Assembly: GCF_900177515.1 (NCBI RefSeq)
Contig: NZ_FXAK01000001.1
Location: forward strand, 248,001-312,000
From: Azospirillum oryzae
GTDB lineage: Bacteria; Pseudomonadota; Alphaproteobacteria; Azospirillales; Azospirillaceae
Length of the DNA stretch: 64,000 nucleotides
Direction: 5' to 3'
The notes under the pieces are model-generated. The model ran no database searches. It had not been told where the DNA came from and saw only the letters and a list, made by a program, of their open reading frames with translations. The position numbers and the translations under genes are program-made. Position 1 is the stretch's first letter, and the number at the start of each line of letters is the position of its first letter. Positions 52,653 through 64,000 of the stretch are shown in pieces.

Positions 52653-52695
52653 TGTGGTGCGGCTCACATCCCGGAATCCGAGGCTTGGGTAGGGT
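52653..52695 (+). promoter_or_regulatory. Crp-type site 1 and -10 element
   Basis: TGTGGTGCGGCTCACA (52653-52668) has the 5-6-5 dyad of a CRP site. TAGGGT (52690-52695), a -10-like hexamer, is centred 32 bases downstream, which would put the site near -41.5 (class II activation). Sites 2, 3 and 4 show the same geometry. It is about 80 bases upstream of the gene at 52749. Confidence 0.75.
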
Positions 52696-52748: not shown

Positions 52749-53291
52749 ATGATCCGCACCTCCCTGCTGACCGGCTTCGCTTCGCTCGCCCTGTTCGCCG
52801 CCCCGGCGATGGCCCAGAACATCTCCGACATCTCCAACACCGCGGCCGGCATCGGCAACACCGCCAACCAGAGCGCGCTGGTCATGCAGAAGTCGAAGGG
52901 TCCCTTCGCCGGGCCGAACGTCGCCACCGTGTCGAACCTCGCCGCCGGCATCGGCAATACCGCCAACCAGGGCGCCTTCGTGAAACAGCGCAGCGGCGGC
53001 GTGTTCGGCGGCGGCTCGGCGGCGATCATCGGCAACACCGCCGCCGGCATCGGCAACAATGCCGGCCAGATGGCAACGGTGATGCAGCGCAGCGGCGGCC
53101 TGCTGAGCGGCGGCTCGGTCGCCAATGTCGGCAACACGGCGGCCGGCATCGGCAACACCGCCCTGCAGAACGGCACCGTGCTGCAGCGCTCCGGCGGGCT
53201 GCTCGGCCCCTTCAACCACAGCTCCATGCAGAACCTGTCGGCCGGTGTCGGCAACTTTGCCGGCCAGAGCGCCCTGGTCAAGCAGCGCTGA
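52749..53291 (+). CDS. secreted repeat protein with five curlin-like units
   Basis: A 180-residue protein. A Sec signal peptide ends at AMA-Q (about residue 23). The mature part is five imperfect units of about 33 residues built on xxNTAAGIGNTAxQxAxVxQ, then (R/K)SGG and Gly/Ser. The spacing of Asn, Gly and Gln recalls curlin repeats (SxxxxxQxGxxNxAxxxQ), which stack as strand-loop-strand in amyloid fibres, but the match is partial. No Cys is present. No csgEFG-like genes occur in the window. A Crp-type site and a terminator bracket the gene, so it is transcribed alone. Confidence 0.75.
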   Translation: MIRTSLLTGFASLALFAAPAMAQNISDISNTAAGIGNTANQSALVMQKSKGPFAGPNVATVSNLAAGIGNTANQGAFVKQRSGGVFGGGSAAIIGNTAAGIGNNAGQMATVMQRSGGLLSGGSVANVGNTAAGIGNTALQNGTVLQRSGGLLGPFNHSSMQNLSAGVGNFAGQSALVKQR

Positions 53292-53406: not shown

Positions 53407-53449
53407 TGTGGGTCAGCTCACAGAAGCAATCCCGGCGCTTCACTAAGCT
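53407..53449 (+). promoter_or_regulatory. Crp-type site 2 and -10 element
   Basis: TGTGGGTCAGCTCACA (53407-53422) shares the TGTGG-N6-TCACA form of site 1. TAAGCT (53444-53449) is centred exactly 32 bases downstream. It is 66 bases before the second repeat-protein operon, directly after the terminator of the first. Confidence 0.75.
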
Positions 53450-53515: not shown

Positions 53516-53971
53516 ATGATCCGCAATTTCGCTCTCGGCGCTCTCGCCACCGCCCTGCTCGCCACCCCCGCCCTGGCGCAGCCCAAATCCGCCGCCGGTC
53601 CCGGCCTGCCCGCCATGATGGCCGTTCCCGGTCTGACCAGCACCAACGTCGCCAACGCCACCAATGTCGGCGCCGGCATCGGCAACTCGGCGCAGCAGCA
53701 GGGCGCCGTCTTCCAGGGCGGCGGCAGTGCGCCCATTCGCGGCGTCGGCCCGCTGGTCAGCACCAATGTCGGCACCGCCACCAACGTCGCCGCCGGCATC
53801 GGCAACAGTGCCGGACAGAGGCTGCTCGGCTTCCAGGGCAACGGCGTTCAAGTCGGGCTGAATTTCAGCGGCCGTGGACCTCTGGTCAGCACCAATGTCG
53901 GGGTCGGCACCAACGTCACCGCCGGCCTCGGCAACAGCGCCGGCCAATCGCTGACCGGCCTGCGCCGCTGA
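53516..53971 (+). CDS. secreted repeat protein with three STNVGxxTNVxAGIGNSAxQ units
   Basis: A 151-residue protein, related in design to the 52749 product. A Sec signal peptide ends at ALA-Q (about residue 22). Three units of about 40 residues follow, each with STNV, TNVxAGIGNSAxQ and a Gly-rich linker. The Asn/Gly/Gln ladder again suggests beta-stacked units. Crp-type site 2 precedes it. It is followed at 35 and 31 base gaps by two small secreted-protein genes and then a terminator, so it heads a three-gene operon. The signal sequence of this and the 52749 protein begin alike (MIRN/MIRT), pointing to common origin. Confidence 0.75.
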   Translation: MIRNFALGALATALLATPALAQPKSAAGPGLPAMMAVPGLTSTNVANATNVGAGIGNSAQQQGAVFQGGGSAPIRGVGPLVSTNVGTATNVAAGIGNSAGQRLLGFQGNGVQVGLNFSGRGPLVSTNVGVGTNVTAGLGNSAGQSLTGLRR

Positions 53972-54708: not shown

Positions 54709-54860
54709 CGTGTCCGCCCCGCGCACGGACGGCGCAGAAGCGCCAACGACGGCGTACCGCCTTTGACGGAGTAAGACGGCCCGGTTGCCGGCGTACCATT
54801 CCCTGGCTGGAGAAGCGGCCCGCGATTTCAGCCACGATGTCAGCCAGAAGGGTGGCGGCC

Positions 54861-55571
54861 ATGACTGCGATACGGATCAACTTCGACAAGGATCTCGTCC
54901 TCGCCGGGCATTTCCTGCTCAAGCATCTGGAGCGGGAGGAACGGCAGCGTCTGGCCAACAGCGCCCGGCTGTCCCACCACCCGCGCGGCGCCATGATCTT
55001 CCAGAAGGGCGATCCGGGCGACAGCATGATGGCGGTCATCCGCGGCCGGGTGAAGATCTGCTGCCATTCGATGGACGGCAAGGAGCTGGTGCTGAGCATC
55101 ATCAACAAGGGCGGCCTGTTCGGCGAGATCGCGCTGCTGGACGGCGAGCCGCGCACCGCCGACGCGGTTGCGCTGGAGGAGACCGACCTGCTGGTCCTCG
55201 ACCGGTCGCAACTGATGCCGGTGCTGACCGCAAGGCCGGATCTCGCCTTCCGCATCATCGGCGTGCTGTGCAAGCGGCTGCGCACGACCAGCGAGCATCT
55301 GGAGGACACGCTGTTCCTCGAAGCGTCCTCCCGCTTCGCCCGCGCGCTGAAACGGCTGGGCGATGCCTTCGGCAAGCCGGGACCGCAGGGGCTGCGGCTG
55401 GACATCAAGTTGTCGCAGCAGCAGCTCGGCTGCCTCGTCGGCGTCTCGCGGGAGAGCGTCAACAAGCTGCTGAACGAATGGCAGCGCGCCGGCGTGATCG
55501 AGATGGATGCCGGCCATATCGTCATCCGCGATAGCCGCGCGCTGGACGAGATCGGCGACTCCTGCGGCTGA
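54861..55571 (+). CDS. Crp/Fnr-family transcriptional regulator, cyclic-nucleotide-binding type
   Basis: A 236-residue regulator. Residues 20-125 form the cyclic-nucleotide-binding barrel; the phosphate-binding cassette FGEIALLDGEPRTA (87-100) keeps the Glu and the Arg98-Thr99 pair that contact the phosphate in CRP. The dimer helix follows, then the winged HTH with recognition segment SRESVNK (196-202), close to SRETVGR of E. coli CRP, including the Arg-Glu that reads TGTGA. There is no N-terminal Cys cluster as in FNR. The start at 54861 has AAGGGTGG upstream; 54837 is the alternative. Its nearby TGTG-N8-CACA-type sites and the linked cyclase make it the probable local cAMP sensor. Confidence 0.9.
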   Translation: MTAIRINFDKDLVLAGHFLLKHLEREERQRLANSARLSHHPRGAMIFQKGDPGDSMMAVIRGRVKICCHSMDGKELVLSIINKGGLFGEIALLDGEPRTADAVALEETDLLVLDRSQLMPVLTARPDLAFRIIGVLCKRLRTTSEHLEDTLFLEASSRFARALKRLGDAFGKPGPQGLRLDIKLSQQQLGCLVGVSRESVNKLLNEWQRAGVIEMDAGHIVIRDSRALDEIGDSCG

Positions 55572-55592: not shown

Positions 55593-55635
55593 TGTGAGCC
55601 GCGCCACAGCGCCCGCATCGGCCTCCGCCTATTCT
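55593..55635 (+). promoter_or_regulatory. Crp-type site 3 and -10 element
   Basis: TGTGAGCCGCGCCACA (55593-55608) has the TGTGA-N6-CCACA dyad, and TATTCT (55630-55635) is centred 32 bases downstream, as at sites 1 and 2. It lies 64 bases after the site edge to the gene at 55672, and directly behind the regulator gene. Confidence 0.75.
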
Positions 55636-55671: not shown

Positions 55672-56376
55672 ATGACCATGTCGCCCCGTACAGCTTTTCT
55701 TCCCACGGTCGCCGCCCTGTTGCTGACCGCCGGGACGGCCGCAGCCCAGGTCACCGGCGGCATCGCCTTTCCACCCGGCCCGATCCCCGGCGCCGCGATG
55801 GCGCAGGCCTTCTCCCAGGCGCCGCGCCTGCCGGTGTCGGTGAACCCGACACCCCGCGGCGCGCCCCCCGGCGCGATGGTGACCAACCCGTCGGTCCGCC
55901 GGTCTTCCGTGAACCAGCAGGCGATCACCCGCATCCGCGGCGACGCCGGCTATCTCGCCGGCTTCAACAAGGGACAACCGCTGGCCGCCAGCCGCCAGCC
56001 GCCGGTGCAGCCCGACCCGGGCTTCACCTTCATCGACGCGCCCTTCATCGTGAACAACTTCAACAGCGCGCTGAACTTCGCCTTCGGCGACGGCAACATC
56101 AGCCAGCAGCAGCTCGGCGACGGCAGCGCCGGCCCGGTGGAGACCGCCGCCCCCGCCCCGCCTGCGCCCGAACCGGCCCCGGCGCCCGATCCGGCCGCCC
56201 AGCCCGCCGGCCCCTCGACGTTGGACCTGCTGATGCGCACGGCCGGGCCGCTGCCGCATCTGCCCACGGCGCTGGCCAATGGCGGTGTGCAGTTCAACAA
56301 CGTGAACACCGTGACCAACACCGCGGTCGGCACGCGCAACCGCGCGACGCAGACGACCGTCACCATCCAGCGCTGA
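55672..56376 (+). CDS. secreted Asn/Pro-rich protein with curlin-like C-terminus
   Basis: A 234-residue protein with a signal peptide (cut near AAA-Q, about residue 25). The middle has a segment FIVNNFNSALNFAFGDGNIS followed by QQQ, then a Pro/Ala-rich spacer (APAPPAPEPAPAPDP). The end, VQFNNVNTVTNTAVGTRNRA, then TQTTVTIQR, has the Asn/Thr/Gln ladder of curlin-type repeats. It is preceded by Crp-type site 3. It is convergent with the caspase-like gene with 9 bases between the stops. The Met at 55672 follows GAGGGAGCC. Confidence 0.7.
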   Translation: MTMSPRTAFLPTVAALLLTAGTAAAQVTGGIAFPPGPIPGAAMAQAFSQAPRLPVSVNPTPRGAPPGAMVTNPSVRRSSVNQQAITRIRGDAGYLAGFNKGQPLAASRQPPVQPDPGFTFIDAPFIVNNFNSALNFAFGDGNISQQQLGDGSAGPVETAAPAPPAPEPAPAPDPAAQPAGPSTLDLLMRTAGPLPHLPTALANGGVQFNNVNTVTNTAVGTRNRATQTTVTIQR

Positions 56377-56385
56377 GCAGGATCG

Positions 56386-59157
56386 TCAGTTCACCTCGCG
56401 CGCCACCCGGAAGCCGTTGGTGAGATAGCGCACGTCGATGTCGTAGCTGTTGCGCACCGTGCCGTTGATCGCCTCCAGCCGGTCGCGCCAGGAGCCGCCG
56501 CGCAGCACCCGCTTGCGGCAATCGCCGCGGGTCCAGGCGCTGCCGTCGTCCGGCGCGCCGTGATAGTTCCGGTTCCAGCAATCCTCGACCCATTCCGCCA
56601 CGCTGCCGTTCATGTCGTGCAGGCCGAAAGGGTTCGCCTTATAGCTGCCGGCCGCGATCGGGGTCAGGTGTTCGTGCGCGCCGCCGCAATCGTCGCAGTC
56701 GGCGTGGACGCCGCCTTCCCCGCCCCACCAGTAGGGTGCCGTGGTACCGGCACGCGCGGCAAATTCCCATTCCGCCTCGCTCGGCAGGCGATAGCGCTGT
56801 CCGGTCTTGCGGCTGAGCCATGCCACATAGGCCTGGGCATCCTGCCAATGCAGATTATGGACCGGCGTGCCGTCGGCGGGGTTGACCATGCGGGGCATGC
56901 CGGTGCAGCCGCCCTCCTGGATGCAGGCGCGCCATTCGCCGACCGTCACCTCATACATGCCGAGCGCGAAGGGCTTGCCGATGGTGACGCGGTGGACCGG
57001 TCGCTCCGACGGGTCGCCCCTGTCGTTCCCCATCATGAAGTTGCCGGCCGGCACCCGCACCAGCACCGGACAGGTCGGACAATCCTGGAAGCTGTTGCCA
57101 TTGCCATGGTTGCGCGCCGTCCCGTTGCCCTGTGCCGGTGCAGGAGCCGGCGCCGTAGCCGCCGCCACCTGCGGCTCGGCCTTGGAGGGCTCGGGCGGTG
57201 ACGGCTGCGGTGCGGCCTCCACCACCGGCGGTGCCGCCGGGGGTGTCGGCAGTGGTTCGTGCTTCAACAGGCCCGCGGCGACGAAACCCTGGGTGCCGTC
57301 CTCCAGAGCGACCCGGTACCACCCTCCCTCCGGCACGCGGCCCAGCACCTGCACCGCCGATCCGCGCGCCACGCGGCCGACCCGCGCGCCACTGTTGGCC
57401 GGCGCCGCCCGCAGCACGCTGTCCACCGTGGCGGTGTAGCGTCCGGGTTCCGCCGGCTCCAGGCCGGGACCCAATACCGCCTCCTGTTTGGTCTCCGTCT
57501 TAGGCGGCTCTTCCGCCCGCTTGCCGGCGAGCGTCAGCGTTTCCAGCTGGCGGCGGGCAATGGGGGCGTAGCCGCTGCCGCCGAACAGCTGCAGGAATGC
57601 CTGATAATCACCGGGCTCCTTGCTGGACTGGATGCGCTTCCACAGGCTGTCCTCCAACTCCGCCACCGGCGGTATGCCCGGCGGGGCGATCTCCACGCTG
57701 ACGCTCGCCGTTGCGGAGCCGCCGCGCCCGTCATCGACGCTGTAGCGCAGGGCTCCGGCCGGTCCGGGGGCCGCGGCCTCCGGGTCGAAGGTCAGCGCGG
57801 TCAGCGCCTGGACGGTCAGCCGGTCGCCCGGCTTCACCACCGCCGCACCGTCATGGACGCTGCCGCGCTCCGGCACGGCGGTGACGGTGACGGTCAGCGG
57901 ATCGCCGTCCGGATCGGCCGGGGCATCGATCCCCATCGGGTTGCCGGCGACGCGCAGCTTGCGTTCCGCCACCACGGCCGGCGGCTGGTTGCTCGGCTTG
58001 ATGGTGACCGGGATGGTGCCGGTGACCATGCCGCCGCGGCCGTCGGCAACCAGGAACTCGAAGGCGCCGGCCTCGCCGCGGAAGCTGCCGTCGGGCTTGA
58101 AGCTGGTGGCCGCCAGTTGCTCCACCGTCAGATAGTCGCCGATCAGCACGCTGCGCTCGCCGACGCGGACGGTGCCGCCGCGCGGCAGGCCGGTGATGCG
58201 GGCGTACATCTGGTCGTCGTCGGGGTCGGTCGGCTTGCCGGCCCCCAGCGGCTCCGGCCCGGCGCGGTCCAGCACGGTCAGCACCCGCAACTCGCCCAGC
58301 ACCGGCGGCCGGTTGGGCGGGCGCGGGTTGAAGTAGAAGGGCGTGGCGCCGAGCGAGCCGTAGACGAAGGGCTCCTGCCGGCCGTTGGTGGCCTGCTTCA
58401 CCGTATCGCGCACATTGCGGAAGAACAGGCTCAGCTCCAGCCCCGGCGCCTGGAGATGCTGGAGCAGCGCCGCGCTGAAGGGGCTGTGGTCGCCGGTGCC
58501 GTCCTCCGCAAGCTGGTCGGCGCGGGTCGCCATCGCCACCAGCGTGTCGCTCGGCGTGTCTTCGACGCTGCCGAAGCCGGGATGGGCCTGATTGCGGTTT
58601 GACCCGCTGCGGGTCAGGCGGTCGACGAAGGGATTGTTGCGGCAGGCGTCGAGGATGAGGATGCCGAGCTTGCGCGCCCCGGCCAGCTCCCCCATCGGCA
58701 GGTTCAGCGGAATCGCCTCATAGACCAGATCGCGTTCGCGCTCCAACTGGGCGTCGGCGGGCAGCAGGTAATTGACGCCGTTCACCTGGATGCCGTGCCC
58801 GGCATAGAAGATCACCGCCACGTCGGCCTGCGAGGCCTTGATGCCGAACCGGCGCAGGGCGACGGCGAAGCCGCGGGCGTCCAGGTCGTACTCCTCGTCC
58901 ACCGTGAAGTTCAGCGCCCGCAGCGCCTCGCCGATGGCACGGGCGTCGTTGCTCGGATTCAGCAGTTCCGGCGCGTTGCGGTATTTGCTGACCCCGATCA
59001 CCAGCGCAAGCCGGCTTTCCGCCGCGGCGCCGGTACCCGGGCCTTGCCCGCCGCCAGCCGAACGGGCCGCGTGCGCAAAGCCGCCCGGCACCGCGACCAG
59101 CAGCAGGAGCAGCAGCACCGCGAAAAGCATCCGGCAGGGTCCGACCGGTCCCATCAT
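56386..59157 (-). CDS. secreted caspase-like (peptidase C14) protein with Ig-like repeats, SH3 and formylglycine-enzyme-fold domain
   Basis: A 923-residue exported protein. A signal segment (about residues 1-31) is followed by a caspase domain (about 45-290) with catalytic His121 in YAGHGIQV and Cys172 in ILDACRNNPF, so the protease dyad is present. Next come two cadherin/Ig-like repeats (about 300-500; ADPDGDPLTVTVTAVPERGS), an SH3-like domain (about 575-625), a Pro/Ala linker, and a C-terminal FGE-sulfatase-type domain (FQDCPTCPVLVRVPAGNFMM to the end). The FGE Cys pair after RGGS is absent (GGSWRDRL), so the domain is probably a non-catalytic ligand- or protein-binding fold. It follows the cyclase operon on the same strand after 226 bases. 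Confidence 0.88.
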   Translation of the reverse strand: MMGPVGPCRMLFAVLLLLLLVAVPGGFAHAARSAGGGQGPGTGAAAESRLALVIGVSKYRNAPELLNPSNDARAIGEALRALNFTVDEEYDLDARGFAVALRRFGIKASQADVAVIFYAGHGIQVNGVNYLLPADAQLERERDLVYEAIPLNLPMGELAGARKLGILILDACRNNPFVDRLTRSGSNRNQAHPGFGSVEDTPSDTLVAMATRADQLAEDGTGDHSPFSAALLQHLQAPGLELSLFFRNVRDTVKQATNGRQEPFVYGSLGATPFYFNPRPPNRPPVLGELRVLTVLDRAGPEPLGAGKPTDPDDDQMYARITGLPRGGTVRVGERSVLIGDYLTVEQLAATSFKPDGSFRGEAGAFEFLVADGRGGMVTGTIPVTIKPSNQPPAVVAERKLRVAGNPMGIDAPADPDGDPLTVTVTAVPERGSVHDGAAVVKPGDRLTVQALTALTFDPEAAAPGPAGALRYSVDDGRGGSATASVSVEIAPPGIPPVAELEDSLWKRIQSSKEPGDYQAFLQLFGGSGYAPIARRQLETLTLAGKRAEEPPKTETKQEAVLGPGLEPAEPGRYTATVDSVLRAAPANSGARVGRVARGSAVQVLGRVPEGGWYRVALEDGTQGFVAAGLLKHEPLPTPPAAPPVVEAAPQPSPPEPSKAEPQVAAATAPAPAPAQGNGTARNHGNGNSFQDCPTCPVLVRVPAGNFMMGNDRGDPSERPVHRVTIGKPFALGMYEVTVGEWRACIQEGGCTGMPRMVNPADGTPVHNLHWQDAQAYVAWLSRKTGQRYRLPSEAEWEFAARAGTTAPYWWGGEGGVHADCDDCGGAHEHLTPIAAGSYKANPFGLHDMNGSVAEWVEDCWNRNYHGAPDDGSAWTRGDCRKRVLRGGSWRDRLEAINGTVRNSYDIDVRYLTNGFRVAREVN

Positions 59158-59383
59158 CCCCGCCTCCGTACCCGAGCAAAGAGACGCCGTACAGTGTCGT
59201 CAGCGCATAACGATTGTCTGCTGGATGGATTTTCGGAAATTGCCGGCAGACCGCCCTGGATGGAAGAAGCATACTCATCAGCAAGGAAAATGCCAATCCG
59301 CCCCTTCTGCCTAACTCCGGAAAAAGAGGAGGTGGCATGACGAAATGATTACTTCCTCCATCAAAATCGAAGGCCGATTTTCT

Positions 59384-61267
59384 TCACCCGCAGACGTCGG
59401 CGTTCTCATCGTCGATCAGCAACCATATCCGCACCGTTCGGGTCTTTCCCTTCAGCGCCACCTCCCCCACCGGCAGTGCCTCGCAGCGGTCGCATACGGC
59501 CTGCCAGGTCGGATCGCCGACGATGATGCGGGCATGGCGGGAGGACCGGCCGTCCACCATCTTGCCGTACGCCTCCAGCCGGGCGGCGGTGTTGGCGGTA
59601 TCGCCCAGCAGCGAATATTCGCTGTGCCGCAGCCCGCCCAGGCTGCCGGCCACCAGGGGACCGGTGTGCAGGCCGACGCGGATGCCGACCGGCGGCAGCC
59701 CCTCCGCCTGCCAGCGGCGGTTGAGCGCCTCCAGCTCCCGTCCCATCTGTAGGGCGCAGCGGACGGCGCGGGCCGCGTCGGCGTCGATCTGCGCCTGCGT
59801 ACTGCGGGCGACCGGCGCGCCGAAGACCGCCAGGATCGCATCGCCGACGAAGCGCAGCACCACCCCGTCGTTGGCGGTGACGATGCGCACCATGGCATCC
59901 AAATAGCCCTCCAGCCAGCGGATCAGCGGCTCCGGCTCCAGCGCCTCGCAGATGGTGGTGAAGCCTTCGATGTCGGAGAACAGCACGGTGGCGGTCAGCT
60001 GCTGCGGGCGCGGGCGGTTGCCGGCCATGAAGGTCGCGCGCTCCCGCCAGATCTCCTCCGCCACCGGCTGGGAGACATGGTTGGCGAACAGCTGCATCAT
60101 GACGCGCCGGTCGGCCCGCTCGCGCAGCGACATCTGCACGGTCATGGCGGCGATGCCGGCACCCCAGGCCAGCGACGGCGCCACCAGCGGCACCAGCGGC
60201 CCGCCTGCGGCGAACAGCGCCGCCGAACCGGCCCAGGCCCCCGCCGGAACCAGCAGCCCCGCCGCCGCCAGCAGCCCCAGCGGCAGCCCGGCCATCGCCA
60301 GCGCCACACCGGCCGCCGCCATCAGCAGCGCCAGCGCCGCCTCCCCGGCGACGGGAAGGCGCGGGCTGCTCCGCCCGTCCAGCAGTTGGGCCAGCACATG
60401 CGCCTCGATCTCCACGCCCGGCGTCGAGGCACCGGCGGACGACAACGGCGTGCGGTGCTGGTCGATGCCGGCCAGCGCCGTGCCCACCAGCACCGTCCGC
60501 CCGGTCAGCCAGCTCGTCGGCAGAACGGCGACCGTCTCGGCGGGATAGATCGGGAACGGGGTGGTGGCGCCGTCGGGCCGGCCGTGCCAGTCGATGCGGA
60601 ACGGCTCCGCCGGAACCCCGGACGCGCCGCCGAGGCGGGCGAGCTGCACCGGCAGGCTGGGCGTGCCGTCGCCGCCGAAGGGAACGTGCCAGCGCACGGC
60701 GGCGTCGAGCCTGTCCTTCGCCAGATTGGCATGGCCGCGCGGCAGCCCGTCGGTGAACTCGCCGAGGAAGCGGCGCTGCCGCTCGGTCAGCGGCGTCTGG
60801 TCCAGTGCGGTGATCGCCACGACCGGGACCGACGCGCCCAGCATGGCGCGGCGCAGCCGCTCGTCCAAGGCCGGCAAGGTCGGCTGGTCGAACAGCACGT
60901 CGATGCCGATGGCGCGGACCCGGGCCGCCGCCAGCACGCCGATGATGTCGGCCAGCATGCCGCGATCCACCGGCGACCGGCAGGCCAGCCCGGCGAAGCT
61001 GTCCTCCCCGAACAGCACCAGCGCGATGCCCGGATGCTGCGGCTGGATCGGAGCGGCGGTGGCGATCAGCCGGTCGCCCAGGCTCTCGTCGGCGGTGCGC
61101 AGCGGCGGCACCAGCCGTACGGCGGCGAGCGCCAGCAGGGCGCTGCCCAGCACGATGGCAAGGGCCAGCCAGCGGTGCCGCCCGGGGGCCGGGCGGTCCC
61201 GCACCGCCGGCTCGGCGATAAGGGAAGCCTGCGGACTTGACCGGGGAGTCGCCGGCGCGCCGTCCAT
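59384..61267 (-). CDS. CHASE2-domain class III adenylate/guanylate cyclase
   Basis: A 627-residue membrane enzyme. One N-terminal helix (31-53), a periplasmic CHASE2 sensor (about 60-300, with [15 protein letters not shown]), three further helices (308-388), then the class III cyclase domain (about 420-605). Metal-binding Asp432 (FSDIEGFT) and Asp476 ([11 protein letters not shown]) and the transition-state Asn559/Arg563 (NTAAR) are present, so it should be active. The base-specifying Lys position is Arg472 (LRFVGD) and the second position is Ser552. It is the last gene of the ompA-like operon (7 bases after the DUF4384 gene), controlled by Crp-type site 4. Confidence 0.9.
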
Positions 61268-61274
61268 GCGCCCC

Positions 61275-62402
61275 TCACCGGACCTTCAGGAACAGTTGGG
61301 CGGAGGCCACCTCGGTCTCGCGCAGGCGCGACACCGCGCGGTCGAGCTGGACGGCGGCCTCCTCGGACAGTGGGCGGAAGGCGGCGGCGCGGCCGGGCAT
61401 CTCGTCGTCCAGGTTGCGGCTGGCGGCGATGCAGCGCACCTCCAGATCGGCAGGCCCCTCGCCGGCGCGCAGCGGCATGCGGTCGCCCGACAGGCTGAGC
61501 GGCACATTGCCCGCCACCCGGGCGCTCATGGCGGCACCGGCCGGAAAGATCGGAATCAACTGGGCGCGCGCATTGCGCAGATAGCAGTAGAGATGGGCGT
61601 CGCGGTCGGTCTGGACCAGCAGGCGGATGTCCTCGCCCGGCCGGTAGGCGGGTCCGCCGCGATCCGCCGAGAGAAAGAGGTCGAGCGGCACCATCGCGTC
61701 GCGCAGGGCCGCCATCGCCGCGGCGATCTGCCCGGCGCAGCCGGCCGAGGCCATGCCCACCGCCAGCGCCGCTCCGCCCGCCGCTCCGACCATGCGGACA
61801 TGCAGCGTGCCGACCGGGGTTCCATCCGGCCGCAGCGCGCCGATGTCGCTCCCGTCCGCCAGCGGCAACGCCTGCGGCCAGGGCGCCGAACCGTCGTCCG
61901 CCCAGCTGACCGCCGCACGCTCTCCACTCACCATGTCCTGCAAGGTCAGGCGGTCCAGCCCCGGCTCCGCCGGGCGGCGCAGCGCAGGCGGGCTTCCCGC
62001 CTTGACGCACTGGACGCCGGAGACCGACGGGTCGATGGTCAGCGCCCGCTCCAGCGCCGCATCCAGCGGATTCCCCATGGCGCGCGCCGCACCCAGGTCG
62101 CTCTGCATGAAGCGGTCGTCACCGGGGCCGGCACGGGCCGAAACCGCGCTGTCGGTCATGTCGCCGGGCACCCCGTCATAGGGGCCGCGCAGCCGCAGCA
62201 GCCGGCCGTTGGCGAACAGCAGCGTGGCATTCGCCCCATCGGGGAGCCGCAAGGCCTGCCCGTCGGCGACGAGCTGGCCCTGAATGAAGCCGGGCGCGCT
62301 GGACGACACGACCACGGCCTCCGCCCGCACCGCGGCGGCATGGCCGCAGCCCAGCGCCAGCATGGCGGCGCCGAATGCATGGGAAAGGGATCGCTTGAAC
62401 AT
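61275..62402 (-). CDS. secreted DUF4384-domain protein
   Basis: A 375-residue exported protein. The start at 62402 (MFKRSLSHAFGAAMLALGCG) is preferred over a GTG nine bases earlier, as AAGGTG then lies at good spacing. Residues about 255-345 contain FLSADRGGPAYRPGEDIRLLVQ and HLYCYLRNARAQLIPIFPAG, a block I associate with DUF4384, which is often found with caspase-like and OmpA-type proteins. The N-terminal half (VVVSSSAPGFIQGQLVADGQ) resembles a FecR-like/beta-rich domain. It belongs to the operon of ompA-like, small protein, this gene and the cyclase. A second DUF4384 gene starts off the right edge. Confidence 0.8.
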   Translation of the reverse strand: MFKRSLSHAFGAAMLALGCGHAAAVRAEAVVVSSSAPGFIQGQLVADGQALRLPDGANATLLFANGRLLRLRGPYDGVPGDMTDSAVSARAGPGDDRFMQSDLGAARAMGNPLDAALERALTIDPSVSGVQCVKAGSPPALRRPAEPGLDRLTLQDMVSGERAAVSWADDGSAPWPQALPLADGSDIGALRPDGTPVGTLHVRMVGAAGGAALAVGMASAGCAGQIAAAMAALRDAMVPLDLFLSADRGGPAYRPGEDIRLLVQTDRDAHLYCYLRNARAQLIPIFPAGAAMSARVAGNVPLSLSGDRMPLRAGEGPADLEVRCIAASRNLDDEMPGRAAAFRPLSEEAAVQLDRAVSRLRETEVASAQLFLKVR

Positions 62403-62443
62403 GATGGTCACCTTTTGGTTGGGAGGCTTGGTTGGGAGGCGGA

Positions 62444-62788
62444 TCAGTCGCGGCTGCGCTCTCTTCCATCATCGGGGGAGAGCAGGCAGGCGGTGCGCGA
62501 CTGCGTCACCACCGACACCGCCCCGTCCGTCGCGCCGTTGCGGCGGAAGCGCAGCCCGTTCAACTGGCTGGCGATGCTGAGCGACACGACGGCGAGGTCC
62601 GCTTCGTCGATGATCTTGTGGCCGTCCTGCCAGCATTGGACGCGGACCTTTTTGCCGGCGGGGGCGACATCGACGCCGCCGCTCGCCGCTCCGGAGCTTT
62701 CGCCATCCTTCTTGCGGACCACCGTGGCGTCGGCCCCCTGGAAGACTGTCAAACCGAGACAGACGGCGAGGAGCAAGGCGTGTTTCAT
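62444..62788 (-). CDS. small secreted protein, unknown
   Basis: A 114-residue protein with a Sec signal (MKHALLLAVCLGLTVFQGAD). The mature core KVRVQCWQDGHKIIDEADLA, then SQLNGLRFRR and SVVTQSRTACLL, has two Cys that could form one disulfide. GGAGGGGAA precedes the start. It lies 27 bases after the OmpA-like gene and 41 bases before the DUF4384 gene. I do not recognise the family; its conserved position suggests a small envelope partner. Confidence 0.65.
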   Translation of the reverse strand: MKHALLLAVCLGLTVFQGADATVVRKKDGESSGAASGGVDVAPAGKKVRVQCWQDGHKIIDEADLAVVSLSIASQLNGLRFRRNGATDGAVSVVTQSRTACLLSPDDGRERSRD

Positions 62789-62815
62789 GGCATTCCCCTC
62801 CGTTCCGGCAGCCGC

Positions 62816-63595
62816 TCAATGGGTCGGCTTGAATTCGACGCGCCGGTTGCGGCCGTCATAGGGGTTGGCGGCGAGCGGTTCGCTCGGCCCCTTGCCGTCC
62901 ACGGTGATGCGCTTGGGATCGATCTGGTGGACGCGGACGAGATACTCGCCCACCGACACCGCGCGGCGCTGCGACAACAGCATGTTGTAGGCAAGGCTGC
63001 CGCTGGCGTCGGTGTGGCCCTCCACCGTCAGCCCCAGGTTCGGATCCTCCTTCATCAGCGCCCCGACGGCGTCGATGTAGGAGGCGGACTCCGCCGGGAT
63101 CTCGGCCGAATTGAGGGCGAAGTTGATACGGAAACCGAAAGCCTGCGGTGCCGCTTCCTGTTCCGCAGTGGCCGGCGGTTCGGCAGCGGCCTGCGGCGCG
63201 GCGGCGGCTTCCATCCGCGCCTCCTGCCGGCGCTGCCTGTGTGCGGGACGGCTCGGTGTCGGCTGCGGAGCGGGCTGAGCGATCGGCTGCATCTCCGCCT
63301 GGGGGGCCGGCTGCGGCGCCGGCATGGGCGCCGTGCCGTAATTGATCTCGTCGATGGGGCGCGGGCGCTTGGCGGCGGCACCGGCCGCGCCGCCGATGAT
63401 CTCGATGCTGCGGGTGCGGATCTTCGGTTCCGGCGCCACCACCTCGCGCAGTTCCTCCACGCTGGGCGGCCGGTCGAACATCATCACCTTCGACTGGCCG
63501 GAGCCCTCCACCGTCTGGGCGGACGCCGAACCGGCCCAGACGGCCAGCATCGGCAAAGTGGCGGCCACAACATGGGACAAAGTGGATTTGGTCAT
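62816..63595 (-). CDS. OmpA-family outer-membrane/periplasmic protein
   Basis: A 259-residue protein. The signal peptide ends near SASA-Q (about residue 26), then a Pro/Ala/Gln-rich linker of about 120 residues, then an OmpA_C domain (about 150-259) with GLTVEGHTDASGSLAYNMLL and the closing NRRVEFKP; the Asp and Arg that bind peptidoglycan diaminopimelate are in place. There is no beta-barrel, so it is a periplasmic peptidoglycan-anchored protein. The start at 63595 has GGAG upstream. It heads an operon with the small secreted, DUF4384 and cyclase genes, and Crp-type site 4 lies about 70 bases upstream. Confidence 0.85.
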   Translation of the reverse strand: MTKSTLSHVVAATLPMLAVWAGSASAQTVEGSGQSKVMMFDRPPSVEELREVVAPEPKIRTRSIEIIGGAAGAAAKRPRPIDEINYGTAPMPAPQPAPQAEMQPIAQPAPQPTPSRPAHRQRRQEARMEAAAAPQAAAEPPATAEQEAAPQAFGFRINFALNSAEIPAESASYIDAVGALMKEDPNLGLTVEGHTDASGSLAYNMLLSQRRAVSVGEYLVRVHQIDPKRITVDGKGPSEPLAANPYDGRNRRVEFKPTH

Positions 63596-63636
63596 TTGAG
63601 GCTCCATGGGCGGGAGAAGGAACGGCGTTGCCCCTG

Positions 63637-63679
63637 GTTCTAGCGCCACACCCATCCCCGCGCTGTGAGCCGGCCAACA
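63637..63679 (-). promoter_or_regulatory. Crp-type site 4 and -10 element
   Basis: On the minus strand TGTTGGCCGGCTCACA (63679-63664) keeps the 5-6-5 dyad with a TCACA half. TAGAAC (63642-63637) is centred 32 bases downstream, exactly as at sites 1-3. It serves the OmpA-like/DUF4384/cyclase operon. Confidence 0.7.
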
Positions 63680-63710
63680 GTCGGCCCCCTTTTCCGAACC
63701 GGCCCGGGCC

Positions 63711-64000
63711 TCACTCCCCCTGCGCCAGCGTGCCGGGCAGCACCTTCACCGTCAGCCGCTTGGCGCGGGCGTCGCTTCCCTTCGCCGTGGCGAAGGCGTT
63801 GATGACGTCGTCCAGGGCGGCGCCTGGAATGGGCTGCAGATCCTCGCTCTTGAACGCCTCCGGGATCCGCACGCCGATCTCGTCGTGGGACAGCACGCAG
63901 GCCACCGTCTCCTCCGCTCCCGGCCGGTCCATGCGCAGGTTGAAGGGCTTCTGCACGCCGGGCGGGACTTCCACCTGCCGACCGGCCTCGACGAAGGCGT
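63711..64000 (-). CDS. DUF4384-type protein, C-terminal fragment
   Basis: A frame open at the right edge, running into the window from outside and ending at 63711. Visible are AFVEAGRQVEVPPGVQKPF, AEETVACVLSHDEIGVRIPE, and LTVKVLPGTLAQGE. The order and hydrophobic pattern match the C-terminal part of the 61275 DUF4384 protein (ADLEVRCIAASRNLDDEMPG to QLFLKVR). No start is visible; a GTG at 63974 is not needed. It is thus a second DUF4384 protein beside the same cluster. Confidence 0.65.
   Translation of the reverse strand, partial: AFVEAGRQVEVPPGVQKPFNLRMDRPGAEETVACVLSHDEIGVRIPEAFKSEDLQPIPGAALDDVINAFATAKGSDARAKRLTVKVLPGTLAQGE

Follow-up and report, generated by a model that had tools for sequence, protein, structure and literature searches.

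Introduction

Two described systems are closest to the locus analysed here, which lies in a window of 64,000 nucleotides from Azospirillum oryzae (RefSeq assembly GCF_900177515.1, contig NZ_FXAK01000001.1, positions 248,001 to 312,000 of the forward strand; the positions below are those of this window) and consists of an operon containing a nucleotidyl cyclase gene and a separately encoded Crp-type regulator. In Rhodospirillum centenum, which has been assigned to the Azospirillum clade, the Crp homolog CgrA activates RC1_3785-gcyB-gcyC-cgrA, which encodes guanylyl cyclase subunits, via TGTGA-N6-TCACA; in the sections of that report drawn on here the loop is called feed forward, ramps up cyclic GMP (cGMP) and has effects of 60- to 80-fold (PMC4681086). 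In Sinorhizobium meliloti, according to the corresponding parts of two reports, the CHASE2 cyclases CyaD1, CyaD2 and CyaK signal through the Crp-type protein Clr, together with NsrA; most Clr targets are small proteins that carry a signal peptide, an outer-membrane protein is involved, and a further cyclase gene, cyaF2, is under direct Clr control (PMC13001267, PMC10127613). No paper on the A. oryzae locus was found in the literature searched. A transcriptome of A. brasilense cysts, as far as its account was available, contains one regulated adenyl cyclase, AMK58_04750, which could not be mapped to this gene (PMC6159551).

The original prediction for this locus held that the cyclase lies within an operon controlled by the very Crp protein that its product is presumed to activate, which would give positive feedback and hence possible bistability. 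The feedback part is supported by the operon layout, a class II Crp site and the cyclic nucleoside monophosphate (cNMP) receptor residues of the regulator; the bistability is not. We regard it as probable that the cyclase, its promoter and the Crp form a dedicated positive-feedback module with cyclic AMP (cAMP) as the most likely messenger.

The operon and its promoter

Four genes on the minus strand run head to tail. They encode an OmpA-like protein (62816..63595; Pfam OmpA, 1.3e-18), a small secreted protein for which the Pfam search gave no family (62444..62788), a DUF4384 protein (61275..62402; Pfam DUF4384, 7.7e-07) and a class III nucleotidyl cyclase with a CHASE2 domain (59384..61267; Pfam CHASE2, 2.5e-26; Guanylate_cyc, 3e-22). 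The open reading frames bear out the predicted order and the gaps of 27, 41 and 7 bases, and the Crp-type site 4 that had been placed ahead of the operon is indeed present (63664..63679, minus strand, TGTTGGCCGGCTCACA), as found by consensus search and in orthologous loci. A predicted -10 box, TAGAAC, follows 21 bases past the site (63637..63642, minus strand; from class II geometry and alignment) and places the transcription start at about 63630. Class II CRP-dependent promoters of Escherichia coli have a site centred near -41.5 and a -10 box, and lack a -35 consensus. The ompA promoter has this arrangement, with the Crp site near -41.5 at the fixed distance from its -10 box.

The bare consensus carries no weight here: shuffled sequences predict 11.9 occurrences of TGTGA-N6-TCACA with up to two mismatches, and the window has nine, which is not above chance. 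What raises site 4 above chance is the rarity of an extended motif, the class II spacing and conservation ahead of ompA. The extended, uneven motif TGTGAGCNNNNCMACA, a pattern derived from the four intergenic window sites themselves (sites 1–4, starting at 52653, 53407, 55593 and 63664), has five matches in the 7.67 Mb genome, four of which are the window sites, and none for the reversed control; the fifth precedes a paralog, 66% identical, of the repeat-protein gene rep1 described below. In a count that covers 36 related loci and the window, with L083 an unrelated Nitrobacter match, TAnnnT stands 21 bases from the site end in 40 and 22 bases in ten of 140 site orientations. Each other offset from 0 to 39 occurs at most three times, and five permuted half-sites gave none at 21. 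As judged from this spacing, the sites carry the geometry of class II activator sites at about -41.5.

Conservation was counted for class II sites with at most two mismatches and a TA -10 box, and since many of the loci are close relatives the counts are not independent. Ahead of ompA such a site is present in all 18 Azospirillum loci counted (4/18 for the best of 29 permuted half-sites), and ahead of DUF4384 in 13 of 25 (permuted half-sites, at most one). All told, 23 of the 25 cyclase-bearing loci have one ahead of ompA or DUF4384, the exceptions being L071 and L054, in which ompA falls outside the stretch compared. Two layouts occur. Genomes of the A. lipoferum type have the four genes tightly packed behind one common promoter. 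In those of the A. brasilense type a gap of 530–750 bases separates the small gene from DUF4384 and has a second Crp promoter inside it, so that the DUF4384-cyclase pair, in several cases with a four-base overlap between the end of DUF4384 and the cyclase start, has its own predicted class II Crp promoter; a strict match to the promoter pattern lies 1.33–1.44 kb ahead of the cyclase start in 17 genomes. The second promoter at the split operons therefore suggests that the layout changed while Crp control of the cyclase persisted. Among six loci examined from metagenome-assembled genomes (MAGs), three (L072, L074 and L075) have a class II site before ompA; the gene order in L074 is ompA-small-cyclase, with DUF4384 missing.

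A separate promoter directly in front of the cyclase gene, which would have spoken against the proposed control, did not appear: a scan of 59300–64000 for sigma-70 consensus promoters returned none, and no class II site stands directly ahead of the cyclase in any of the 25 Azospirillum loci (best permuted half-site, one). A terminator scan of the operon gave one match, at the level of chance, and RNA folding of the operon leader gave no signal (z 0.62).

The regulator and its pairing with the cyclase

The Crp-type regulator (54837..55571, plus strand) comprises a cNMP-binding domain (PF00027, 1.4e-23) and a Crp helix-turn-helix (HTH; PF13545, 1.4e-15). Alignment indicates that it keeps the phosphate cassette FGEIALLDGEPRTA, with Gly-Glu and Arg-Thr/Ser (GE...PRT), and the Thr-Ser pair of base contacts at the position of E. 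coli residues 127/128. Autoregulation of crp was considered and set aside; the upstream sites in L058, L062 and L063 point away from the gene.

Across 82 genomes of the family, 41 have both the cyclase and this Crp and 41 have neither, at thresholds of E 1e-200 or better for the cyclase, a cut-off chosen after seeing the gap between best matches of 2.4e-217 and better and those of 1.0e-95 and worse, and E 1e-70 or better for Crp. The promoter largely follows the same division. The strict pattern, with 101 matches against two for reversed-pattern controls, occurs in 34 of the 35 genus genomes that have the window Crp and in one of the ten without it (Fisher test, 1.1e-7, uncorrected for kinship); family-wide the figures are 38/41 and 3/41. 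The single genome of the ten, G019, has an orphan site followed by a 35-residue crp fragment, which is probably a deletion scar. The scar (L132, 7662–7871) has a rep1-type Crp promoter in a genome with neither Crp nor cyclase. A Crp paralog on contig C1 is present in all 45 genus genomes, and thus the sites follow the window Crp and not this paralog. The ompA-cyclase unit, then, very probably has the Crp of 54837–55571 as its activator. The operon layout, the class II geometry, the extent to which it is conserved, and the fact that promoter, Crp and cyclase are inherited together are all read directly from the sequences.

The cyclase active site and the likely nucleotide

The cyclase has both the CHASE2 and the catalytic domain and keeps the metal-binding Asp432 and Asp476 as well as Asn559 and Arg563. 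In place of the canonical substrate pair of Lys and Asp/Thr it has Arg472 and Ser552. The Arg is found in 40 of 40 ortholog rows, in which some genomes are entered twice, with Ser (32), Cys (six) or Thr (two) at the second position; the Arg/Cys pair was seen in six MAG loci. Seven CHASE2 cyclases of genomes that lack this crp have Lys/Thr in six cases and Gln/Thr in one. Glu, which guanylyl cyclases have at the first position in the part of the literature consulted (PMC4215837), is absent from that position in all 40 rows.

The cytidylate cyclase EaPycC has an arginine, Arg142, four residues ahead of the metal-binding Asp146 and thus in the same place as the Arg of the present enzyme, and in the passage of that report on CRP proteins Ser at position 128 goes with cAMP, Asn with cUMP and Glu with cGMP (PMC11224242). 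EaPycC differs in having Gln144 where this cyclase has Val. The PADLOC models for PycC match the catalytic domain at 1.3e-23, a match that many class III cyclases may share. In our view the product is most likely cAMP, other nucleotides being possible, because both the phosphate cassette and the Thr-Ser pair, in which Ser goes with cAMP, are retained in the Crp. Arg and Ser could stand in for Lys and Thr as adenine contacts.

Positive feedback and the alternatives

Positive feedback is the natural reading of a cyclase that sits in a Crp unit when the residues typical of cyclic-nucleotide receptors are retained in that Crp, and as a prediction from sequence the wiring is well supported. In the scheme that we favour, the CHASE2 cyclase would be opened by a signal from the envelope or from outside and would make a cyclic nucleotide, which would load the Crp encoded 3.8 kb away. 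Loaded Crp would bind at about -41.5 ahead of ompA-small-DUF4384-cyclase and boost cyclase synthesis, and it would also induce a limited group of secreted repeat proteins. Since the cyclase would still depend on a signal to open it, the loop would amplify a genuine stimulus and might keep a memory of it. We infer Crp binding, activation as its direction, the nucleotide used, a closed loop, a sensing role of CHASE2 and any bistability.

Bistability would require cooperativity together with sufficient induction. A simple model gave none at a Hill coefficient of 1, and bistability above about ninefold induction at a coefficient of 2 or 25-fold at 1.5. The effects of 60- to 80-fold in the related CgrA system place the bistable range within reach, and no more than that.

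A number of observations, besides the kinship of the loci, weigh against this scheme. Site 4 is the weakest of the four window sites, with two mismatches to TGTGA-N6-TCACA, and its -10 box lacks the final T. The gene upstream of ompA, which ends at 63711, reads toward the operon and no terminator is predicted between them; read-through from it, or an intragenic promoter, is a possible further source of cyclase transcription. No class II site lies ahead of crp in the window. Among the related loci, L071 has no class II site, not even before DUF4384, and the MAG loci L076, L077 and L082 have none before ompA. In genus g13 (L091–L094) the cyclase follows a caspase-DUF4384 arrangement to which no class II site points, and the four g13 genomes with a strict match have a single site, which is not at the cyclase locus. 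Finally, the genome has five matches to class III cyclase domains and 15 Crp-like or cNMP-binding matches, this pair included in both counts, and a shared nucleotide pool could therefore dilute the loop. The genomes with unlinked cyclase and Crp (G078–G081) do have class II sites ahead of ompA and the small gene; none is directed toward caspase-DUF4384-cyclase, so these genomes speak neither for nor against feedback there. Separately, we note that G077, G078, G079 and G080 each contain one strict match, TGTGAG...CTCACA with a TATAGT or TACAGT -10 box, away from the cyclase.

The same abundance of cyclases and receptors favours an open loop, in which Crp controls the operon with little self-amplification, the cyclase product going to other receptors or a common pool, or Crp responding mainly to other cyclases. 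We consider this unlikely, given that this cyclase clade and this Crp co-occur perfectly over the 82 genomes, even where they are unlinked in g13, and that Crp control is retained where the promoter instead precedes DUF4384-cyclase. Were another Crp-type protein the true regulator, the obvious candidate would be the C1 paralog, encoded beside YcaO and TfuA, which has a related HTH and a perfect TGTGAAGTTTTTCACA site at its own locus. Its presence in every genus genome is hard to reconcile with a strict promoter in only one of the ten that lack the window Crp, that one being G019 with its apparent deletion scar, and we find this alternative very improbable. The sign of regulation cannot be read from sequence, and E. 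coli CRP represses cyaA, which leaves room for negative or neutral feedback, with Crp as a repressor or with apo-Crp activating and the nucleotide switching it off. The activating class II position, the missing -35 consensus and the sharing of both with the other targets make this quite improbable.

A different departure concerns the messenger. The Arg/Ser cyclase (Arg/Cys in some MAGs) might make, for example, cGMP or a cyclic pyrimidine to which Crp is tuned, leaving the loop insulated. The invariant Arg, as opposed to Lys in most CHASE2 cyclases of the crp-less genomes, its correspondence to Arg142 of EaPycC and the perhaps unspecific PycC match are in line with this idea; the absence of the Glu that guanylyl cyclases have, the Val in place of Gln144 and the cAMP-type Thr-Ser pair of the Crp run counter to it, and on balance we hold it to be improbable. 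A bolder version is a private, self-amplifying channel in which a cyclase with Arg/Ser (Arg/Cys) and one Crp are co-inherited in Azospirillum and related Rhodospirillales, use a nucleotide that is perhaps not plain cAMP, are insulated from the other cyclases and drive all-or-none production of amyloid-like secreted repeat proteins. We judge it to be distinctly unlikely in this complete form. The dedicated positive-feedback module thus remains the reading that we prefer.

Other targets and neighbouring genes

The remaining window sites, all on the plus strand and assigned by consensus search and spacing, are site 1 (52653..52668; -10 box TAGGGT), site 2 (53407..53422; TAAGCT) and site 3 (55593..55608; TATTCT, 21 bases on). 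Site 3 lies ahead of the gene for a secreted protein (55672..56376, plus strand), a predicted class II Crp target with homologs behind the same type of promoter elsewhere in relatives. Two open reading frames on the same strand, rep1 (52749..53291) and rep2 (53516..53971), encode secreted AGIGN-repeat proteins. Outside the cyclase and crp loci, rep1- or sec55675-like genes were found in 18 of 20 match stretches, which we selected from the 101 strict matches plus one further match; L119 and L131 have neither, and the genes in L121, L122 and L127 were assigned by tblastn.

The repeat family consists of tandem AAGIGNxAxQxAxxxQ units, corresponds to no Pfam or NCBIfam family and has paralogs in L110 and L115–L130. 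Some genomes have several copies behind Crp promoters, and G032 has eight strict promoters, of which three were inspected. An AlphaFold2 model shows stacked two-strand repeats (predicted local distance difference test score, 72). Identity with curlins was rejected, as 16 members gave no curlin match, and a comparison of the fold with the Protein Data Bank gave no match at E 0.001 or better (FapC, 0.004; CsgA, 0.13; template-modelling score below 0.2). The modelled proteins appear curli-like without being members of that family. One copy of CsgG is encoded on another contig.

Downstream of the cyclase, linked and on the same strand, lies the gene for a caspase-fold and FGE-sulfatase protein (56386..59157, minus strand), which is only a candidate member of the operon. 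It is close to the cyclase in most related loci and heads the DUF4384-cyclase unit in g13. The strand of the operon also carries, immediately upstream of ompA, the gene for a 519-residue protein (window position 63711 onward; 212–1771 in L134), the C-terminal part of which is DUF4384-like as judged by eye.

Comparison with known systems

The promoter resembles the E. coli class II type in its site at about -41.5, its -10 box and the lack of a -35 consensus, and differs in its uneven half-sites (TGTGG/CTCACA), often followed by GC. With the CgrA system it shares a Crp-type promoter ahead of a cyclase operon. In R. centenum the crp homolog lies inside the cluster, whereas here crp is a separate plus-strand unit outside the operon, with no class II site ahead of it in the window. 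CgrA, as far as the cited account describes it, controls non-catalytic subunits (PMC4681086), while here a CHASE2 sensor cyclase lies behind ompA-small-DUF4384; the cAMP-type Thr-Ser pair is a further difference.

The likelier counterpart of CgrA in this genome, although this is a guess, is the C1 locus (L109, 4722–11457), possibly a cGMP/CgrA system. The domain search there gave, besides YcaO, TfuA and Crp, a class III cyclase-AAA protein whose substrate residues are degenerate, and did not confirm a gcy/cgrA locus; the perfect TGTGAAGTTTTTCACA lies between cyclase and YcaO.

The Clr system is alike in its CHASE2 cyclases that signal to a Crp-type receptor, its small secreted target proteins, its outer-membrane protein and its control of a cyclase gene. 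It differs in its binding motif, and the parts of the reports cited do not list the genes of the CHASE2 cyclases among the Clr targets (PMC13001267, PMC10127613); in the present case a single cyclase is paired with a single Crp. Since CgrA raises its own cyclase subunits and Clr both regulates cyaF2 and serves CHASE2 cyclases, the principle of such a circuit is already known. Within the literature searched, what is new is that the predicted loop includes a sensor cyclase, that this enzyme has an unusual substrate pair and is strictly paired with a single Crp, and that the output consists of secreted repeat proteins, a family that can now be named as the predicted product of the loop. Bacterial cyclic-nucleotide circuits are usually taken as one global pool. 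The both-or-neither distribution of cyclase and Crp, with Crp control kept although the promoter has moved, points to selection for the feedback itself, and the locus would be a compact case of signal amplification, possibly with memory, built in a plant-associated genus from one enzyme, one receptor and a few promoters.

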